DNA of 42,422 nucleotides from Methylobacter sp. GTDB taxonomy: Bacteria > Pseudomonadota > Gammaproteobacteria > Methylococcales > Methylomonadaceae. This document shows, in pieces, positions 27,671 to 35,797 of the stretch (its first letter is position 1; each line of letters opens with the position of its first letter). The notes under the pieces were generated by a model. It was given only the letters and a program-made list of their open reading frames with translations. It had not been told where the DNA came from and made no database searches. The DNA lies in the NCBI GenBank assembly GCA_030653175.1, contig JAURZV010000107.1, positions 1 through 42,422 on the forward strand, written 5' to 3'. A program made the position numbers and the translations under genes.

Positions 27671-27741
27671 AGGGCGTGCCGTGCGCGCCAAAGAATTGGA
27701 AAATTATTTCAGCACAGGAAAAGGCGCGCGTGGCACGCCCT
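27671..27741. repeat. GC-rich inverted repeat (AGGGCGTGCC type)
   Basis: Arms AGGGCGTGCCGTGCGCGCC (27671-27689) and its near-complement (27723-27741) match at 17 of 19 positions. A related single arm is at 39299-39319. It lies between the cupredoxin and GH17 genes and probably ends or separates their transcripts. Confidence 0.7.
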
Positions 27742-29200: not shown

Positions 29201-30388
29201 ATGACTAAAGTTAAACTAACGCTACTTATTTTAAATGCCGTATGGTTATTTGCAGTGTCCGAAGTCAGTTATGGTCGCCATGCCGCCATTATTATCGACG
29301 CGGACAACGGCAATGTCTTGCATGAAGTAGACGCAACACAGTCATGGTATCCTGCCTCGCTCACAAAACTGATGACGCTGTACATGACATTTGATGCGTT
29401 GAAAGCGGGTCAAATTCATCTACACGACACCTTAACCGCATCAACTCACGCGTCACAACAACCCAATAGTAAACTGGGTTTAAGACGCGGCGAGCATTTA
29501 ACCGTCGAAGATGCTGTTTTAGCCATTATTACCCGTTCTGCGAATGATGCGTCTGTGGTTCTTGCCGAACATCTGGGTAACACGGAGCAGAATTTTGCCG
29601 TTAATATGACGACAAAAGCGCATTCATTGGGCATGTACAACACCCATTTCATGAACGCGACCGGCCTTCCCAACAACTGGCAAGTGACCACATCCAGAGA
29701 TATGGCCGTTCTGGCATGGAAAGCACAGCGCAATTTTCCCGAGTATTATCACTACTTTGCTGCGCACAGCTTTAATTTCAAAGGAACAGAGCTGCGGGGC
29801 ATCAACAAATTCACAGCCAACTATCCCGGCGCGGAAGGCATGAAAACAGGGTTCACCTGCGGCTCCGGTTTCAACCTGATCGGCGCGGCGCATCAGAACG
29901 GCAAACATCTGATCGGTGTGGTGATGGGCGGCATGACCAGCAAAGAACGCTATCAGTTAATGATGCAAAAAATGGATGCAAGTTTCGCTAACCTAACCAG
30001 CGTCGATCCAGTCACAAACATCAACACTATGCTTACAAGCTCAGCAGGCAGCCCGCCCTACCAGCTTGATTGCGGTAATGGAACCGCTACGCATTCAATA
30101 CCAACCTCTAATCGCGTTAGCTATATGCCTAAGCACAAGCATATCAGCCGAACCCGAACTAATATCAGAGGCATTAACACGGTTCGGCCTAAGACTGTCA
30201 TTTGGGCCAAGACCGGCATCAAGCCCATTAACAAGAGCAAGATTTTGCCTAAAGCTATCATACAGACCAGGGCCATTATAAAACCTGCCAGCAAGCTCCC
30301 TGCTAAAAGTAAAAACTTTCATAAACCCAAAGCCGACACTAAAGCGTCCGGCAAAACAAAGAGTACGCAAAAAGTTGCACTTCATTAA
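29201..30388 (+). CDS. D-alanyl-D-alanine carboxypeptidase (peptidase S11) with basic tail
   Basis: A 395-residue penicillin-binding protein of the DacA/DacC type that trims the fifth D-alanine of peptidoglycan stems in the periplasm. The signal peptide ends near residue 25 (SYG). The active-site motifs are all present: SLTK (Ser53, Lys56), SAN (113-115) and KTG (215-217), with the YPGAEGMKTGFT context of S11 enzymes. After the catalytic domain (to about 280) there is no PBP5 C-terminal beta domain or amphipathic anchor; instead a tail of about 100 residues is rich in Lys, Arg, Thr, Ile and Pro, with loosely repeated IKP/KT units. This tail could bind acidic polymers or be disordered. Single gene. 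Confidence 0.88.
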   Translation: MTKVKLTLLILNAVWLFAVSEVSYGRHAAIIIDADNGNVLHEVDATQSWYPASLTKLMTLYMTFDALKAGQIHLHDTLTASTHASQQPNSKLGLRRGEHLTVEDAVLAIITRSANDASVVLAEHLGNTEQNFAVNMTTKAHSLGMYNTHFMNATGLPNNWQVTTSRDMAVLAWKAQRNFPEYYHYFAAHSFNFKGTELRGINKFTANYPGAEGMKTGFTCGSGFNLIGAAHQNGKHLIGVVMGGMTSKERYQLMMQKMDASFANLTSVDPVTNINTMLTSSAGSPPYQLDCGNGTATHSIPTSNRVSYMPKHKHISRTRTNIRGINTVRPKTVIWAKTGIKPINKSKILPKAIIQTRAIIKPASKLPAKSKNFHKPKADTKASGKTKSTQKVALH

Positions 30389-30613: not shown

Positions 30614-30654
30614 CCAATAGCCATGAATAGCAGTTTTGTCTGAGTCAAAGCATA

Positions 30655-31809
30655 TCAAAATAACCGTGGTCTTTCCCCCATTCTACCAGGCAGGAGGAAA
30701 ACGTCTGCCGCCGCCGTGCTCTCTCCCAATTGCCGGCTCTCGGACGCGGAATCGTAAACAACAAGGAGCGAGCGGGCTGTGCCGCCATCCGGGGAGAATA
30801 ACGTCATGCCTTCGGCATGATCTACACCCTGGCCGTAGGGCACATCCAGAACACGCTCCAAATCGTCGGCCAGAACCACACTCTCGCCTTTTGGCTTTGT
30901 ACCACCCGGCCACCGGAAGATGGTGATCGGGCCGTCCAGATCCATGGTCGGACCTCCCAGGATCAACAGATCTGAGCCCTGTGCGCAAACGTCGCGGATG
31001 CCGAGACCGCCTAGCTGGAGGAAATGCTTTCGGTAAGGGCGCTGTTTCGGTCCAATTGGCTTCATCCTCAGCATAGACGGCTTCTTGTTATCCTCCTTTA
31101 GCTCCACTTCCAGGATCACCGCCCAGCCACGCAGGACCGGTCCGCGCAGCCCAAGGAAGAGGCGCTTGCCCGCCACGGCCAACCCCTCAATATCAAACCC
31201 ATTGTCCTTGCCCGGGATCGCGAGGAACGATCCCAGATGCTTGTCCCCTCTCAATGCCTCAGTCAAGTCGTTACCCTGGGCGTTACCACGCAGTTGGGCG
31301 GCGATGCGCTTTTTTCCCTTCTTCGTAACTTCTTTCGTCAAGGTGTACGTCCCGTCGCCTTCCACCACGGGGATGCGGGCCAGCAGGTAACGGTTGCCGT
31401 CCGTGCTCACCTTGGCCAATTGCTTATGGGCCCCCTTGGCCCCATCCTTCAGCGTCGGCTTTTTGCGCTTCAGGCTGTGTGACCCCACCAACCAGAGGTA
31501 GCCGTCTTCGTAGTCCAGCCCTTCCACGTCCACCTCTTCCAGGTCCGCGGGATCATTGGGAGGCGCAACTGGCAGCTGAAGATAATCATCGAGAGAGAAT
31601 TGCTTGTGATGTCGGCCATATCTGTAGTTGCCGGTGTTACCTCCCTCGATGAGAGAGAGCCGTTCCAGGCTGTTCGATTCATCGTTGGCGACCCAGAGGC
31701 TGTCCCCGATCTGCAGGGCAACGGACAGTCCATCTCTAAGCTCTTTATCCTTGCCCAGATCATCGCGTTCAGGATTGAACTCCAGGTCAACGGTACTTGT
31801 CGGATTCAT
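30655..31809 (-). CDS. DUF3616 family protein, in a gene cassette
   Basis: A 384-residue protein of the DUF3616 family, predicted soluble beta-propeller-like proteins of unknown function. Blade-like motifs recur: GLSVALQIGDSLWVANDES, VDVEGLDYEDGYLWLVGSHS, FDIEGLAVAGKRLFLGLRGP, GIRDVCAQGSDLLILGGPT, DHAEGMTLFSPDG. There is no signal peptide. Its base composition is clearly more GC-rich than the flanking chromosome, with CTG, GCC and GGC codons favoured, as expected of transferred DNA. The start is 62 bases after the attC at 31871-31930. No attC was found after its stop, so it is the last, apparently broken-ended, cassette of the array. Confidence 0.8.
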   Translation of the reverse strand: MNPTSTVDLEFNPERDDLGKDKELRDGLSVALQIGDSLWVANDESNSLERLSLIEGGNTGNYRYGRHHKQFSLDDYLQLPVAPPNDPADLEEVDVEGLDYEDGYLWLVGSHSLKRKKPTLKDGAKGAHKQLAKVSTDGNRYLLARIPVVEGDGTYTLTKEVTKKGKKRIAAQLRGNAQGNDLTEALRGDKHLGSFLAIPGKDNGFDIEGLAVAGKRLFLGLRGPVLRGWAVILEVELKEDNKKPSMLRMKPIGPKQRPYRKHFLQLGGLGIRDVCAQGSDLLILGGPTMDLDGPITIFRWPGGTKPKGESVVLADDLERVLDVPYGQGVDHAEGMTLFSPDGGTARSLLVVYDSASESRQLGESTAAADVFLLPGRMGERPRLF

Positions 31810-31870
31810 GATTATGCCCTCTGCTCAATTAGTAATTTCGTGCACTCGCCCCGGCTTTTTCTTCCACGCC

Positions 31871-31930
31871 GCCTAACGCAGAGCTAAGCGGGCCGACGTT
31901 AAAAGGCTCCGCTTGAGCGTCTTGCTAGGG
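31871..31930 (-). repeat. attC-like recombination site, 60 bp (after DUF2269)
   Basis: Read on the minus strand: a degenerate outer core CCCTAGC (31930-31924), an inner arm CGCTCAAGCGG, a complementary arm CCGCTTAGC, and the outer core GTTAGGC (31877-31871). The inner arms pair except for an extra base, the unpaired-base signature that lets IntI pick the strand. The DUF2269 stop lies just before it. Confidence 0.75.
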
Positions 31931-31931
31931 C

Positions 31932-32531
31932 TCAATGGGGTTCCTTGGCTTCACTTCGCCTCGTATCCCAAGGGTATAGTTTGGGGATGTAGATTGTGAG
32001 AAGAGCCGCGATCAGTATGGCGGCCACCGCACCAACAATAAACAGTGTCCAAGTATCTGGCTTGATGGTACCTAGAGCTATAATCAGGAACAACATGGGA
32101 AGGTCAAGAAAGTGAGTAAAGGTAGGAATATTCTCTGCGCGCGCCCTCTCTAGCTCAGGGGTGAAACCGCCGGTGTTTACTGCTTCTTTCGCCAAGCGGC
32201 GCAACCGCATGAAATAAAGCCTCGTGACGGTATTCCCCTCGATGAATTCAAACGCAAACAGAAACACCATCCCCGCGAGCCACGGAATATTGATGAAGTT
32301 CCAGCCGCCGAATTGTTCAACAATCAGCCAGGTTCCCGAGATGAGCAGAAGCACTGCGCCGGGCACTACAACACCGTCGTAGAACACTGCAATATTTCTT
32401 ACCGCTTCGGAAAACTGGGGCAACTCGCGCAGTTGACGTGACCGCAAATCGGAGAGCCAGACGCTGATTAGTCCTCCGCCGATGAGTATGGCGCCGAGCA
32501 CGTGAGCAAACTTGAGGAGCGTGTATGTCAT
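31932..32531 (-). CDS. DUF2269 family membrane protein, in a gene cassette
   Basis: A 199-residue inner-membrane protein of the DUF2269 family (unknown function). About five hydrophobic segments can be seen: YTLLKFAHVLGAILIGGGLI, GVVVPGAVLLLISGTWLI, WLAGMVFLFAFEF, LPMLFLIIALGTI and LFIVGAVAAILIAALLTIY. The early KFAHVLGAI and the NTVTRLYFMRLRRLAKEA stretch are family-like. The ATG at 32531 is just downstream of the degenerate core site at 32544-32551, and the open frame upstream of it is attC DNA. Cassette genes coding for membrane proteins of unknown role are common in chromosomal integrons. Confidence 0.78.
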   Translation of the reverse strand: MTYTLLKFAHVLGAILIGGGLISVWLSDLRSRQLRELPQFSEAVRNIAVFYDGVVVPGAVLLLISGTWLIVEQFGGWNFINIPWLAGMVFLFAFEFIEGNTVTRLYFMRLRRLAKEAVNTGGFTPELERARAENIPTFTHFLDLPMLFLIIALGTIKPDTWTLFIVGAVAAILIAALLTIYIPKLYPWDTRRSEAKEPH

Positions 32532-32542
32532 ATTTTTATTGA

Positions 32543-32633
32543 GCCCCAATGTAAAGCTAACCAGGCGCGGCACTGGGAAGCTGAGCAATAAAAACGTACT
32601 ATGACCGCGCTCTGGTTGAGCGCCATGTTAGGC
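32543..32633 (-). repeat. attC-like recombination site, 91 bp (after hicB)
   Basis: Read on the minus strand: core GCCTAAC (32633-32627), inner arm CGCTCAACCAGAGCGCGG, then after a long spacer the complementary CCGCGCCTGGTTAGC, and a degenerate far core ATTGGGG near 32544-32550 in place of GTTRRRY. The near core overlaps the hicB stop codon. The decayed far core may make it inactive. Confidence 0.75.
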
Positions 32634-32840
32634 TTGAACCTCAACGAACGAGCTTGCAGAATGCGGCATCGGAATACGCTGGCCTTCTTCTTTAAGCCCC
32701 TCAATGTGAAACTCGATAGCTTCTTGAATAAGTTGCAGAGCTTCTTGCGATGACTCGCCTACAGCTATGCAACCGGGGAGATCAGGGACATAGGCACCAA
32801 AGCTTGTTGGGCCTTCTTCAATAACAACCATATAACGCAT
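32628..32840 (-). CDS. hicB: HicB family antitoxin
   Basis: A 70-residue antitoxin of the HicB family that blocks HicA. It has the partial RNase-H-like fold with YMVVIEEGPTSFGAYVPDLPGCIAVGESSQEALQLIQEAIEFHIEGLKEEG, the standard N-terminal HicB text. It lacks an obvious C-terminal DNA-binding domain, as in short HicB proteins. Its TAA lies within the core site of the attC that follows (32627-32633), typical of compact cassettes. The gene begins 11 bases after the hicA stop. Confidence 0.92.
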   Translation of the reverse strand: MRYMVVIEEGPTSFGAYVPDLPGCIAVGESSQEALQLIQEAIEFHIEGLKEEGQRIPMPHSASSFVEVQA

Positions 32841-32851
32841 ATAAACCTCTA

Positions 32852-33037
32852 CTACTTAAGTCCCGCTTGTTTCAAAACGTTGATAAGCGTTCCAGGCGGG
32901 ACATCCACGCTGGGTTTTCCAGCAACTGTGACCGTACCGGATTTGATGGGATGGTGGAACTGACGATGGCTTCCTTTTTGCTGTACTTGCAGCCAACCAT
33001 CCAACTCAATTATTGCGATAAGGTCTTTAATTTTCAT
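32852..33037 (-). CDS. hicA: HicA family mRNA interferase toxin
   Basis: A 61-residue toxin that cleaves mRNA through a dsRBD-like fold. The family pattern is complete: KIKDLIAIIELDGWLQVQQKGSHRQF with the catalytic His in KGSH, then HHPIKSGTVTVAGKPSVDVPPGTLINVLKQAGL. Toxin-before-antitoxin order and 11-base gap are normal. It begins 47 bases after the attC at 33084-33207, so hicA-hicB form one two-gene cassette that can stabilise the array. Confidence 0.92.
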   Translation of the reverse strand: MKIKDLIAIIELDGWLQVQQKGSHRQFHHPIKSGTVTVAGKPSVDVPPGTLINVLKQAGLK

Positions 33038-33083
33038 GCTGTGAGTTTAGCACAGCTTTTTCTTGATACTCAACTGGGAACAT

Positions 33084-33207
33084 GCCTAACGTTACGGTAA
33101 GGGGCGCGCCGCCTCTGAGGACTTAAACGAAGCCGCCGAACCTTGATAAAAACAAAACCGCCAAAACCGCCAACGGGCGGTGCGTCCCTTTGACTGACTT
33201 GTTAGGC
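33084..33207 (-). repeat. attC-like recombination site, 124 bp (upstream of hicA)
   Basis: The most complete site of the array. Minus strand: core GCCTAAC (33207-33201), arm AAGTCAGTCAAAGGGACGC, a long GC-rich palindromic middle with CCGCC/GGCGG words, arm GCGCGCCCCTTACCGTAAC, and core GTTAGGC (33090-33084). The two cores are exact complements. It is closely similar to the site at 34843-34959, including the ACGCnCCGCC and GGCTTCGTTTAA segments. Confidence 0.9.
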
Positions 33208-33296
33208 CGGATGCGTGATTGCAAGACCTCATTCTTTCAAAGTTCCGACAGCAGCGGGCCGGCGCTCAGCGCATGCCTTGGTATGAAGAACATCGG

Positions 33297-33369
33297 AAAG
33301 CCGCGTGCGGGAAAACTGCATGCACGGTTTGATGAGGGAGGACAGGTGAGAACCTGTTCTCTACTCTAC
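33297..33369 (+). ncRNA. group II intron 3' fragment (domains V and VI)
   Basis: Domain V is at about 33299-33329: it opens AGCCG, contains the catalytic AGC, pairs GTGC with GCAC, has a GAAA loop and closes CGGTT. Domain VI follows (33331-33369): an AGGGAGGACAGGT / ACCTGTTCTCT hairpin ending CTACTCTAC. This is the standard 3' end of bacterial group II introns, most like class C. No domain I or reverse-transcriptase gene exists here: only about 90 bases separate it from the attC, so it is a 5'-deleted remnant. It lies on the strand opposite to the cassette genes, as group IIC-attC introns do. Confidence 0.8.
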
Positions 33370-33423
33370 CCCGTGTGCCGTGCGCGCGACTTTAGTGGAC
33401 GCTTTACGCGGCGGTCAAACATC

Positions 33424-34167
33424 TTACTTTGATTTTCGGTTGAATGAGAGCAAGCGCTCATACTCAACTTTAACCACCGAATAGCACTCACACGCTCGCT
33501 TTTCAAGTTTGCGGCGATTCAACACTGTAATGCGACCGCGTGCCCGTGCAATCAATCCATCTTTTTGTAACTGACCGAGAATCAGGGTCACGCTCTCCCG
33601 GCGTACACCCAATAATTTCCCAATTGTTTCTTGCGTTATCACCACTTCATTGTCATGTAATCTATCCATAGTCATCAACAGCCATCGGCAGATTTGCTGA
33701 TCCAGTAAATGATGTTGGTTGCATACTGCAGCTTGAGATGTCTGAACAATTAGCCCCTGCGTGAAAAGCAATGCTGCGCGTTGCAGTTCACCTCCTAACG
33801 AGAATTCTTGTTTCATCACTTTCCGGCTGAGTCGATAAGCATTGCCTGCGCTTTGCACTTCCGTGCTGGTAGGCATACTCTCGCCCCCCATAAAAATGGA
33901 TATACCGACTATACCCTCGTTACCAACCAGAGCGGTTTCGCTTGAGGAACCGTCTTCCAGAGAATAAATCAGCGAGACAATGCCAGAGGTCAGAAAATGC
34001 ACAAATTTTTCATGGTCGCCTGACTCTGACATCGTCCATCCCAATGGCATCTCAACGAATTCAAGATCGGGTAACAGGCGCTCGTAATCCTTGGCGGGAA
34101 GGGCTGCAAGTATGCAATTTTGCTTTGGATCTGAGGGCAAAACGTTTGCTATTATCGTTTTTGACAT
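33424..34167 (-). CDS. Crp/Fnr family transcriptional regulator, in a gene cassette
   Basis: A 247-residue regulator: N-terminal cyclic-nucleotide-like beta-barrel (residues about 20-130, with FVHFLTSGIVSLIYSLEDGSSSETALVGNEGIVGISIFMGG), a dimerisation helix (about 130-160), and a C-terminal winged helix-turn-helix (about 175-230, VITQETIGKLLGVRRESVTLILGQLQKDGLI). The cysteine pattern of oxygen-sensing FNR is absent, and the cAMP-binding RxS segment of CRP is not clear, so the ligand is unknown. It has its own 5' region of about 200 bases after the attC at 34373, longer than usual in cassettes and possibly with its own promoter. The group II intron remnant separates its stop from the next attC. 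Confidence 0.88.
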   Translation of the reverse strand: MSKTIIANVLPSDPKQNCILAALPAKDYERLLPDLEFVEMPLGWTMSESGDHEKFVHFLTSGIVSLIYSLEDGSSSETALVGNEGIVGISIFMGGESMPTSTEVQSAGNAYRLSRKVMKQEFSLGGELQRAALLFTQGLIVQTSQAAVCNQHHLLDQQICRWLLMTMDRLHDNEVVITQETIGKLLGVRRESVTLILGQLQKDGLIARARGRITVLNRRKLEKRACECYSVVKVEYERLLSFNRKSK

Positions 34168-34372
34168 ATCTGGGTTCCTTCAAGTATGAAATTCGTTGAA
34201 TTAGCGTAAGTCAAGGCGTGATTGTGCATTATTTCTTACAATTTGGCTTGCTCCACTTAAATGGGCACTTTCAGGCGCATAGCCTTTCATGTTTCAGGGC
34301 GCCGTTTAGCCAAGGGCGGAATGCAGGCGTTCACGACTCAAGAGCTCTTTTGGAGATTGCGTTCATATAAAA

Positions 34373-34461
34373 GCCTAACGCAGCGTTAACCGGGCGCGGT
34401 GCAGAGAATGAAGATTAACAACCGCCATGATTCCGCGCTCCGGTTGAGCGTTGGGTTAGGT
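34373..34461 (-). repeat. attC-like recombination site, 89 bp (after DUF1640)
   Basis: Minus strand: core ACCTAAC (34461-34455), arm CAACGCTCAACCGGAGCGCGG, a spacer, the complementary arm CGCGCCCGGTTAACGCTG, and core GTTAGGC (34379-34373). The arms pair with an extra unpaired base. It is of the same subtype as 32543-32633 and 31871-31930 (CGCTCAA-x-CGGAGC). The DUF1640 stop is 12 bases upstream of it. Confidence 0.88.
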
Positions 34462-34472
34462 GTTGATGATAC

Positions 34473-34754
34473 TCAAAGCAGCTTGACTAGAGCGGCAACT
34501 ATGCCAATAGACAGAGCCATGAGGCCGCCAAGCTTAATGACTAAACGCTGCTCAACCTGGATAAATCCAGAGTGCATTTCTCGCCGAAGAGACTCGATTT
34601 CACGGTGCAAATCTTCCTTGGTGACCAGTTCCTTGAGATTAACCTCAAGAGCTTCTGATAGTGCTTCGGCCTCGGCTTCCGCTTGTTTGTCGGGAACTCC
34701 GGCAGATTTAAGCCTGTTGGCATATTTTAATGTATCAAACGTAATTGCAGCCAT
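34473..34754 (-). CDS. DUF1640 (CCDC90-like) coiled-coil membrane protein, in a gene cassette
   Basis: A 93-residue protein resembling the short bacterial DUF1640/CCDC90 family: an N-terminal ITFDTLKYANRLKSAGVPDKQAEAEAEAL, a Glu/Lys/Arg-rich coiled coil (about 33-68), and a C-terminal membrane helix (about 72-92, KLGGLMALSIGIVAALVKLL). The family's bacterial role is unknown; mitochondrial relatives regulate calcium uptake. It is preceded by a good ribosome site (CAGGAGGTGG) and lies between attC sites at 34373 and 34843, forming a complete cassette. Confidence 0.8.
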   Translation of the reverse strand: MAAITFDTLKYANRLKSAGVPDKQAEAEAEALSEALEVNLKELVTKEDLHREIESLRREMHSGFIQVEQRLVIKLGGLMALSIGIVAALVKLL

Positions 34755-34842
34755 AGTGCCACCTCCTGAATTTAGTTTACCACGCTTGACAGTCGCCGCA
34801 AACCTCGCACAGGCCGTACAATTTCTTTGCTGTAGTTGATTT

Positions 34843-34959
34843 CCCTAACGTAAAGTTGAGGGGGCGCCGCTCACAGAATTTAAACGAAGCCGTCGAACCA
34901 AAAAACAAAACTTCAAAACCGCCAACTGGCGGCGCGTCCCTTTGACCGACTTGTTATGC
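34843..34959 (-). repeat. attC-like recombination site, 117 bp (proximal end of array)
   Basis: Minus strand: core GCATAAC (34959-34953), arm AAGTCGGTCAAAGGGACGC, GCCGCC/GGCGG palindromic middle, arm GCGGCGCCCCCTCAAC, core GTTAGGG (34849-34843). It is the same subtype as 33084-33207. No cassette gene that I trust lies on its far side, and no integrase gene is found between it and the kinase gene at 35216. Confidence 0.85.
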
Positions 34960-35215
34960 TTTTTTCTATTTCCATACCACATTAATAAAATAAAGATAAA
35001 TAAATTAGCTCCAATCGGATACAGGCCAAAGCCAACGCTGTAAGGTGGATTCACCGTTAGGCAATCCACCGCAACTTGGACAGGCTGTCGTCGGCGTTGT
35101 GCGTGTGTGGCAGTTTGCTGCTGCGAAACTGCCCTACGGCCGGGGATGTATTTACAGCGGTTTTTTGATTAATAGGGGTAATGTCTTAGTCTGTCCACAG
35201 AATCGTGCTACAGGT
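34960..35215. other. 256-base gap between attC and kinase gene, with palindromes
   Basis: Holds GGTGGATT (35044-35051) / AATCCACC (35063-35070), an extragenic palindrome, and a GGCAGTTT / AAACTGCC pair near 35110-35132. The GTTAGGC at 35056-35062 belongs to this palindrome, not to an attC. This is the chromosomal edge of the cassette array; I see no integrase or primary attI site. Confidence 0.5.
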
Positions 35216-35797
35216 TTAAGTCAACAGTACTGAGAGGTCATCCTCCCAACTTTGTACATTAATAATCTGTATTTTAAAGGCAGCTTGCGCGACAAAATCA
35301 TAAAATGCTTTATCGACTATGTTTTGTTCGGCGAGTTGTTGCGGGCTCAAGTTGGTATCAATAGCGGCTGACTTTATCAGGATAAGTTCGGTTGCCGAAA
35401 GCGTCTTGGCCAGCCATGCCGCGAGGCTGTCTGAGGTTATATCCCAGCTTGCCTGTATGCCTGCGTTATCCAGTTCAATAATATCCGGCGACCAAATGAC
35501 GGTTTTTTGCCGGTCTAGTTGCTCTTGAATCGCCTCGACAGTATGGGCGATAGCAAAACCCGGTTTAAGCCCGTTAAACATCAAGGCCATTTGCTGCATG
35601 GCTAAGAGGGCCATGTGGTGTGCGGTGTTATCGTCAAATTGCCAGTGCTGTTGCGCTAATCTGACCTGATCGGCAAACGCGCCGCCGCCGGGGACAATAA
35701 CCACTGCCCTGCCCTGATAGTTTTTTTCTACAGTATTTAGGCATTTAATAAGGGCATCCGAGCGGGACAGACTGCCGCCCAGTTTGATAATAATCAT
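35216..35797 (-). CDS. amino-acid kinase family protein, MfnE-like
   Basis: A 193-residue protein of the amino-acid kinase fold, shorter than aspartokinase or glutamate kinase. N-terminal IIIKLGGSLSRSDALIKCL and VVIVPGGGAFADQVR are the phosphate-binding glycine loops; later WDITSDSLAAWLAKTLSATELILIKSA matches the nucleotide-binding region of MfnE, which phosphorylates aminomethylfuran in methanofuran synthesis. Methylotrophs carry such genes in their C1-cofactor clusters. It follows pabB by 30 bases, and PabB makes the p-aminobenzoate used in folate and tetrahydromethanopterin. The C1-cofactor role is inferred. Confidence 0.65.
   Translation of the reverse strand: MIIIKLGGSLSRSDALIKCLNTVEKNYQGRAVVIVPGGGAFADQVRLAQQHWQFDDNTAHHMALLAMQQMALMFNGLKPGFAIAHTVEAIQEQLDRQKTVIWSPDIIELDNAGIQASWDITSDSLAAWLAKTLSATELILIKSAAIDTNLSPQQLAEQNIVDKAFYDFVAQAAFKIQIINVQSWEDDLSVLLT

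Follow-up and report, generated by a model that had tools for sequence, protein, structure and literature searches.

How does a string of attC sites and small genes come to lie between a carboxypeptidase gene and an amino acid kinase gene in a Methylobacter genome, on a contig in which no integron integrase was found? The stretch of DNA analyzed here, referred to as the window, is a 42.4-kb contig (C11) of a draft assembly of 109 contigs, and it was compared with the remainder of that genome and with relatives that include G002, G006, G012, G019 and G020. The reading that we favor, to which we assign a probability of about 0.8, is that the array in the window is an integrase-less cassette array (CALIN) of the genus cassette pool, situated at the breakpoint of a chromosome inversion.

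Five attC sites without a detected integrase

Candidate sites were sought with a self-made covariance model (R1), trained on 16 attC of the integron on another contig, C46, and on none from the window. All five matches are minus-strand hits, scoring 41-71 bits with E values from 2.5e-8 to 7e-16, and fall at the same five places that the original prediction had proposed, which is thus borne out by an independent training set:

31871..31930, minus strand: attC site 1, 60 nt, CGCTCAAGCGGAGC type, degenerate core site at one end (R1 50.4 bits, E 1.1e-10)
32543..32633, minus strand: attC site 2, about 90 nt, degenerate core site at one end (R1 64.2 bits at 32544-32633)
33084..33207, minus strand: attC site 3, 124 nt, AAGTCnGTCAAAGGGACGC type (R1 41.2 bits, E 2.5e-8)
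34373..34461, minus strand: attC site 4, 89 nt (R1 70.6 bits, E 7e-16; DNA fold z -3.72)
34843..34959, minus strand: attC site 5, 117 nt, AAGTCnGTCAAAGGGACGC type (R1 45.6 bits, E 1.9e-9; DNA fold z +0.34)

Each match covers the full model, with inverted core sites and a hairpin carrying unpaired bases in one arm. The only remaining window match at E<=1 is the plus strand of site 4, which scores 23.1 bits (E 0.0011) against 70.6 bits on the minus strand; none of the other four sites has a plus-strand match at this threshold. Site 3 is 91% identical to an attC (L263) of the relative G006. Across an alignment of 150 attC of the pool, 91.8% of hairpin cells are paired and 17 of 22 hairpin pairs show changes on both sides, a result equaled by 0 of 500 shuffles, although these statistics lean towards the model to which the alignment was fitted. 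When the bottom strand is simply folded as DNA, the score is strong at site 4 only, the other z values being -1.84, -1.31, -1.48 and +0.34, so that the attC assignment is carried by the covariance model rather than by folding energy. A scan that combined a pattern with arm scores recovered two of the five sites among 10 window matches (shuffled mean 1.6) and was set aside in favor of the covariance model.

The five attC are packed within 3.1 kb. When the C46 IntI was used as a tblastn query, there was no match in the window at E<=1e-3, and all matches of the genome to TIGR02249 and PF00589 are on contigs other than C11. Since two or more attC near each other are sufficient for a CALIN (PMC9024848), a cluster of this kind without a detected integrase is classified as one; with no adjacent intI found, it does not qualify as a complete integron. 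The attC scan and the integrase searches therefore agree with the view that this is an array without a nearby intI in a genome whose integrases are located elsewhere, and a covariance scan of the kind that had been put forward as a check, performed here with R1 on window and genome, hits the five sites and finds further attC elsewhere, the integrase searches placing intI on other contigs.

Cassette genes and the genus pool

Small minus-strand genes had also been anticipated between the sites, and five minus-strand open reading frames do reside there; a sixth gene lies at the terminal position.

30655..31809, minus strand: DUF3616 gene, terminal cassette without its attC (PF12275 E 5.8e-127)
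31932..32540, minus strand: DUF2269 predicted membrane protein cassette (PF10027 E 2.2e-29)
32628..32840, minus strand: HicB-like antitoxin (PF15919 E 9.8e-15)
32852..33037, minus strand: HicA toxin, in one cassette with HicB (PF07927 E 5e-18)
33208..33232, plus strand: pre-attC tail, also in a cassette of the C46 integron (96% over 25 bases to C46:24165-24189)
33424..34167, minus strand: Crp/FNR-type regulator cassette (PF13545 and PF00027)
34473..34754, minus strand: CCDC90-like coiled-coil protein cassette (PF07798 31.9 bits, just below the cut-off of 33.5)

With R1, no attC was found behind the DUF3616 gene, beyond the last attC of the array; a homologue that is 92% identical (L148) is followed by one. 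Relatives of the CCDC90-like cassette occur on C46 (71% over 443 bases) and C82 (76% over 366 bases).

Contig C46 holds a complete-looking integron, with an open IntI frame (464.7 bits versus a cut-off of 265) and 19 attC on the 5′ side of intI. Its IntI is 92.7% identical to that of G019, and genes of both flanks are common to the two genomes, a comparison consistent with vertical descent of this integron. Outside C46, R1 finds 11 attC in the genome, five in the window, three on C67, and one each on C82, C104 and C107. In the genus as a whole, attC are widely scattered, and many genomes have attC with no detected integrase.

The two attC subtypes in the window had been taken to mean that its cassettes came from at least two sources. 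The C46 integron contains the two together (one at L016:16108-16230, the other at L016:6858-6946 among further places), and for each of them nearest matches are present in other species as well, so this assumption is not needed. The nearest neighbor is in another species for 15 of 19 C46 attC and for four of five window attC (about 120 of the 150 rows come from relatives, which favors them), indicating that the likeness among attC is genus-wide. For this reason, we rejected the notion that attC likeness proves the resident integron to be the donor.

That the whole array was captured from an outside donor, as originally proposed on the grounds of a differing base composition, appears improbable. 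The DUF3616 gene has 58.0% G+C, and at E<=1e-30 its homologues are present in just 5 of 201 genomes of an order sample, in which at least 10 genomes belong to the genus and only this one has the gene; given this rarity, the DUF3616 cassette was probably acquired. The proposal holds to that extent, but the G+C of positions 31810-34959 is an ordinary 49.6%, as compared with 47.5 +/- 2.1% (42.6-51.2) for 3150-bp windows over positions 1-29650, and the window attC belong to the genus pool.

Reciprocal junctions on two contigs

The genes that bound the array are as follows:

29201..30388, plus strand: left flank, D-Ala-D-Ala carboxypeptidase (CPase; PF00768)
35216..35797, minus strand: right flank, amino acid kinase family gene (AAK, MfnE-like; PF00696; NF040622 87 bits, cut-off 300)

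Among relatives, 6 of 20 CPase loci have pntA downstream, and 5 of 20 AAK loci have uvrA no more than 9 kb further downstream, with no attC found in those five; G020 and G012 show both neighborhoods. Neither CPase nor its neighbor at 27681 was found in 20 AAK loci of relatives, and neither AAK nor pabB in 20 CPase loci; likewise, there was no match to pntA in the former or to uvrA in the latter. In the present genome, pntA and uvrA instead flank the three-attC array on C67. The junctions are thus reciprocal (CPase, five attC and AAK on C11; pntA, three attC and uvrA on C67), their arrays are oppositely oriented, and the pair matches the two new junctions, in inverted orientation, expected of a chromosome inversion. 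No other genome compared showed these derived junctions. In the relatives, none of the 20 AAK-side loci has an R1 match at E<=1, and the 20 CPase-side loci have three in total, all from G006.

Both junctions are marked by short repeats:

30637..30681, plus strand: L repeat, an inverted duplication with its other copy on the pntA side of the C67 array (24 bases exact within a 45-column alignment)
35141..35196, plus strand: R repeat, likewise an inverted duplication, next to AAK and derived in degenerate form from the 3′ end of uvrA, the intact copy being on C67 (56-column alignment)

Within this genome, the L repeat matches below E 1e-3 at these two places only; beyond it, there is a 43-base, 84% match on contig C100 of G006 (E 2.2e-5). 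There is a further copy of the 3′ end of uvrA in G006 too (77 bp, 80.5%), located 4 kb inside the interval between AAK and uvrA. A crossover inside the DUF3616 cassette, which would leave the gene on C11 and its attC on C67, was considered and discarded, because in L148 the tail after DUF3616 is a different one and the attC that follows belongs to the other subtype, and because the pieces are joined by the L repeat rather than at a cassette boundary. On C67, one transposase-like remnant was noticed by eye; a complete insertion sequence was noticed at neither junction.

An assembly artefact, in which unrelated stretches were joined via attC repeats, has to be considered for a draft genome of so many contigs, particularly as the similarity of attC to one another is a known obstacle to assembly (PMC9024848). 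The C11 and C67 arrays have no exact match above 24 bases (the L repeat), and against the other loci fetched from this genome the maximum is 31; repeat-driven misassembly is unlikely with matches so short, and the array is at least 7 kb from either end of its contig. We regard this explanation as extremely improbable. Scarcely more credible is the proposal that the window array was split from the C46 integron through rearrangement. The two do have attC subtypes and one cassette family (CCDC90-like) in common, but the attC likeness is not specific to C46, whose two flanks retain the conserved genes also seen in G019, while the flanks on C11 and C67 derive from the CPase/pntA and AAK/uvrA loci. 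On the basis of these flanks, a split from C46 was rejected.

Both sites are plastic among the relatives, since uvrA was not found in the fetched stretch in 15 of 20 AAK loci, nor pntA in 14 of 20 CPase loci (some of which end at contig ends), and several events may be superimposed. In G012 and G006, the AAK-uvrA interval contains HicA/HicB-like genes (36-46% identical) and no attC, and CCDC90-like genes lie near AAK in G002 (33%) and near CPase in G009 (43%). Some of these genes may accordingly be older at these sites, as judged from their homologues. In a member of the family, G031, a CPase-like match (59%) is located on the 5′ side of AAK. An SBF-type transporter gene resides beside AAK in 10 of 20 relatives and has no match in this genome.

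Origin of the two arrays

In the inversion reading, the cassettes with the five attC would have been drawn from a genus-wide pool that the sedentary integron on C46 also uses. The bottom strand of each attC is expected to fold into a hairpin recognized by an integron integrase, and the C46 integrase could act on the window attC in trans. The ancestral order would have been CPase→ pntA→ and AAK→ ←uvrA, giving rise to CPase→ [5 attC] ←AAK on C11 and ←pntA [3 attC] ←uvrA on C67. Before the flip, cassettes had presumably moved into the intergenic sites, and the exchange would have taken place inside or beside cassette arrays, which at the breakpoints run in opposite directions, as exchange between inverted copies requires. 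A more specific version, which we consider doubtful, is that the integrase itself recombined attC of two opposed arrays, or one such attC with a genomic site, flipping the segment and leaving two CALINs as a scar. If true, integrase-driven flips could be a general route in the genus to CALINs and to chromosome reshuffling, with arrays serving as portable inversion endpoints.

Alternatively, the inversion may have had another cause and come earlier, with the resident integrase later placing arrays into attG-type genomic sites at two existing junctions. The layout of L repeat, array and R repeat at both junctions also fits cassettes that arrived after the flip. In addition, C82, C104 and C107 each carry a lone attC, cassette insertion at non-classical sites has been described (Loot et al. 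2024, as cited in PMC12444791), and the uvrA 3′ end, to judge from its copy in G006, is a repeated insertion place. Yet this order of events requires two independent insertions precisely at both reciprocal junctions and does not by itself account for the abrupt end of DUF3616 without an attC, and we consider it possible but unlikely. It overlaps in part with the inversion reading, so the odds of the two do not sum to one.

A third scenario is a special case of the inversion reading, in which a former integron between CPase and pntA lost its integrase and left cassettes behind that the inversion then split. In G019, a frame-broken integrase-like relic lies between these genes (L125:5949-6319, tblastn E 1.6e-8), oriented such that its cassettes would face CPase, and G006 has three attC after CPase that point the same way. 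Together, these suggest from comparative evidence that the CPase-pntA interval is probably an old integron site, and the authors of IntegronFinder recall a proposal that CALINs are degraded integrons (PMC9024848). Against this, no integrase relic was found on C11 or the fetched stretch of C67, in G002 and G008 CPase is separated from pntA by no more than about 0.5 kb, without an insert, and the involvement of the AAK-uvrA site as well is evident from the R repeat. We hold this scenario only tentatively, with somewhat greater confidence than a later insertion.

Relation to known integron systems

With five attC, no integrase found on its contig and a complete integron elsewhere, the array resembles other members of the CALIN class of IntegronFinder, which in one survey were about as numerous as complete integrons (2961 versus 2760; PMC9024848). 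Unlike a typical CALIN, it is one of two at the apparent ends of a single inversion, and its terminal gene has lost its attC. Xanthomonas likewise has a sedentary integron at one conserved site, with CALINs elsewhere in about half of genomes (PMC12444791), comparable to the scattered CALINs beside a sedentary integron here, but in Xanthomonas the positions of CALINs are reported to be relatively well conserved from one species to another (PMC12444791), in contrast to the derived junctions of this one genome. Cassette arrays are also involved in an inversion in the Vibrio cholerae chromosomal integron, where recombination of two IS3 copies inverted an internal segment (PMC11023631); that exchange was between insertion sequences within one array, whereas here two loci are joined.

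Among the literature matches listed, no title concerned CALINs at inversion ends or the integrons of such a genus; a listed article about Methylococcus genomes contains the word integron 13 times. What appears to be new, from gene order, is a CALIN at a synteny break with apparent reciprocal inversion junctions and a sister array on C67. The original prediction had covered neither this break nor the sister array, nor the C46 integron, the intron remnant or the missing attC of DUF3616. Gene order in relatives links one CALIN to a particular kind of event, in which a chromosome segment is inverted reciprocally and a second array marks the opposite junction. Should this be confirmed, it would be a concrete case of scattered arrays marking rearrangement breakpoints, testable in a genus with many sequenced genomes.

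A group II intron remnant within the array

One further element of the array lies between the Crp/FNR-type gene and attC site 3:

33238..33371, plus strand: group II intron 3′ end, remnant (RF00029 50 bits, cut-off 40, at 33296-33369)

The RF00029 match corresponds to the catalytic RNA domain V and does not distinguish intron subclass. Like group IIC-attC introns (PMC7923331), the piece runs against the cassette genes and lies near an attC, starting about 30 bases past its end. It differs from them in consisting of some 134 bases of the 3′ end, placed between gene and attC rather than at the attC TTGT/T; there is no long plus-strand open reading frame at 33208-33423, and hence no class IIC maturase gene. 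Copies that are 84% identical to it are found at contig ends of C80, C107 and C109. In a plasmid search with this piece, matches among the best 15 of 54 records cover at most about one-third of the query, and some of these fall under group II intron genes.

Cassette array and attC sites

The original prediction placed five attC sites in the array region, and all five are recovered by R1, a covariance model trained without the window sequence on 16 attC that were read from contig C46, where they adjoin a TIGR02249 integrase, and then aligned, with a hand-written hairpin. These are the only right-strand matches in the window at E<=1, a sixth line being the opposite strand of the attC at 34373. 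Both-side changes occur at 17 of 22 hairpin pairs among the 150 attC used for pairing analysis (154 found), a result biased in favor of the model because the alignment was fitted to R1; by folding energy alone, four of the five window sites score weakly. No local integrase was found, and the cassettes follow one another on the minus strand:

34843-34959 (-): attC at the start of the array, no clear gene ahead
attC at 34373 (-): cassette with a CCDC90-like gene
attC at 33084 (-): cassette with a Crp/FNR gene and a group II intron piece
attC at 32543 (-): HicA-HicB cassette
attC at 31871 (-): DUF2269 cassette
Final gene (-): DUF3616, without an attC

The nearest relative of the DUF3616 gene (92%) resides in the Methylococcales MAG STA_49 and has an attC behind it. 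The likeness between the two copies ends about ten codons ahead of the window stop and is followed by the L repeat (30637-30681, +), which suggests that the cassette end was lost from the window copy. R1 finds one attC across 21 DUF3616 loci (17 of the 80 named loci and four from other genomes), immediately behind this nearest homologue.

Integrases and attC elsewhere in the genome and genus

The window is one entire contig (C11) of a 4.0-Mb draft in 109 contigs (completeness 99.97). With R1 in place of IntegronFinder's model, this genome yields 30 attC at E<=1e-4, distributed as 19 on C46 (16 of them the R1 training set), five on C11, three on C67, and one each on C82, C104, and C107. An integrase and additional sites, which the original prediction proposed to look for in the whole genome, are thus present: 25 attC lie outside the window, and the open integrase frame on C46 is complete (TIGR02249, 464.7 bits). 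The only other match above the cut-off is partial (C60:1420-2058, locus L018; 268.5 bits) and consists of the C-terminal part alone (model positions 102-313, open frame of 227 aa). The C46 integron has genes on both flanks conserved with the relative G019, and the IntI proteins are 92.7% identical. A lone strong attC on C104 (41799-41887, locus L145; 96.7 bits) is separated by about 160 bases from a tyrosine recombinase whose frame is broken and whose match to the integron integrase model is weak.

Of 22 further genus genomes, half match an integrase at E<=1e-60; among the 11 that do not, 10 contain one or more attC at E<=1e-4, several genomes being incomplete. Five genomes without an integrase match at E<=1e-60 (G020, G001, G005, G013, and G017) carry 15 to 22 attC each; G020 is assembled in just 3 contigs.

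Both attC subtypes of the window are also present in C46, and the nearest neighbors of four of the five C11 sites and 15 of the 19 C46 sites are in other species, though relatives make up about 120 of the 150 rows compared. Therefore, neither the proposal that the cassettes came from at least two sources nor that of capture of the whole array from an outside donor is needed.

Exchanged neighborhoods at the array flanks

The left flank genes (26991, 27681, and the D-Ala-D-Ala carboxypeptidase gene, CPase) tend to stay together in the genus, as do those of the right flank: the amino acid kinase family gene (AAK; likeness to MfnE 87 bits, below the cut-off of 300), pabB, and 37337. In 40 relative loci, the two groups are never neighbors. 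AAK is instead followed within 9 kb by a facing uvrA in 5 of 20 loci (G004, G020, G012, G006, and G011), and pntA comes after CPase in 6 of 20 (G020, G012, G019, G002, G008, and G022), the expected neighbor in the remaining loci being outside the stretch examined, in some due to a contig end. In the genome under study, uvrA and pntA both reside on C67, with three attC in between. Compared with the relatives, CPase and pntA reading in one direction and AAK and uvrA converging have become CPase and AAK converging and pntA and uvrA both reading in one direction, with uvrA pointing at pntA, which in gene order is the pattern of an inversion; the rearranged junctions thus fit such an event. The cassettes of the two arrays point in opposite directions, those on C11 to CPase and those on C67 to uvrA. 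On C67, what by eye resembles a transposase remnant (L144:12263-12508) separates pntA from the array, and two small frames at L144:14871-15478 likewise resemble a HigB/HigA toxin-antitoxin cassette.

Junction repeats and insertion places

The L inverted repeat, shared by the CPase and pntA ends, spans 45 columns with 24 bases exact; no third copy below E 1e-3 exists in this genome, and an L-like match occurs on contig C100 of G006 (84% over 43 bases). The R inverted repeat (35141-35196, +), shared by the AAK and uvrA ends, spans 56 columns and equals the uvrA end, so that a degenerated uvrA tail sits next to AAK on C11. In G006, this end is present a second time (77 bp, 80.5%), 4 kb into the AAK-uvrA interval; the uvrA end is therefore an insertion place independently of the inversion and looks like a hotspot, and R may have an origin other than the inversion. 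The 4-kb insert between uvrA and this copy (L052:8949-12923) contains ORFs that by eye look like methylase, ParB, and HicB. A short repeat at window 35034-35120 (GTAAGGTGGATTCACCGTTAGGCAATCCACC) recurs close to CPase in two relatives (G010 and G013) and partly on C82.

The CPase-pntA interval of G019 contains a frame-broken integron-integrase-like stretch (L125:5949-6319; tblastn E 1.6e-8). R1 finds three attC in the CPase-side set (20 loci, all from the genus), every one in G006, and none in the AAK-side set (20 loci, 19 from the genus and one from the family). Based on the G019 relic and the G006 sites, the CPase-pntA interval is probably an old integron site.

Proposed history of the array

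Cassettes would have entered two places, the uvrA end and the probable old integron site in the CPase-pntA interval, and a flip would have joined these cassette-bearing places; the C46 integrase could move the window cassettes in trans. Against this history, HicA/HicB-like genes occur at these sites in G012 and G006, and CCDC90-like genes in G002 and G009, without detected attC. The exchange may have been made either by integrase or by repair across short repeats, and either before or after the cassettes arrived. CALINs alongside an ancestral integron are already known (excerpts of PMC9024848 and PMC12444791), as is inversion of arrays by insertion sequences (excerpt of PMC11023631); among these kinds, the window is a case whose history is unusually legible.

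Group II intron piece

Inside the Crp/FNR cassette, between the gene and the attC, lies a group II intron 3′ end (window 33238-33371) that is directed opposite to the cassettes. Introns within arrays have been proposed as intermediates in cassette formation (Leon and Roy, as reported in an excerpt of PMC7923331), a picture with which this piece is loosely compatible. Other members of this intron family occur in the genome under study at contig ends (C80, C107, and C109; 84%) and in G006 (91%).
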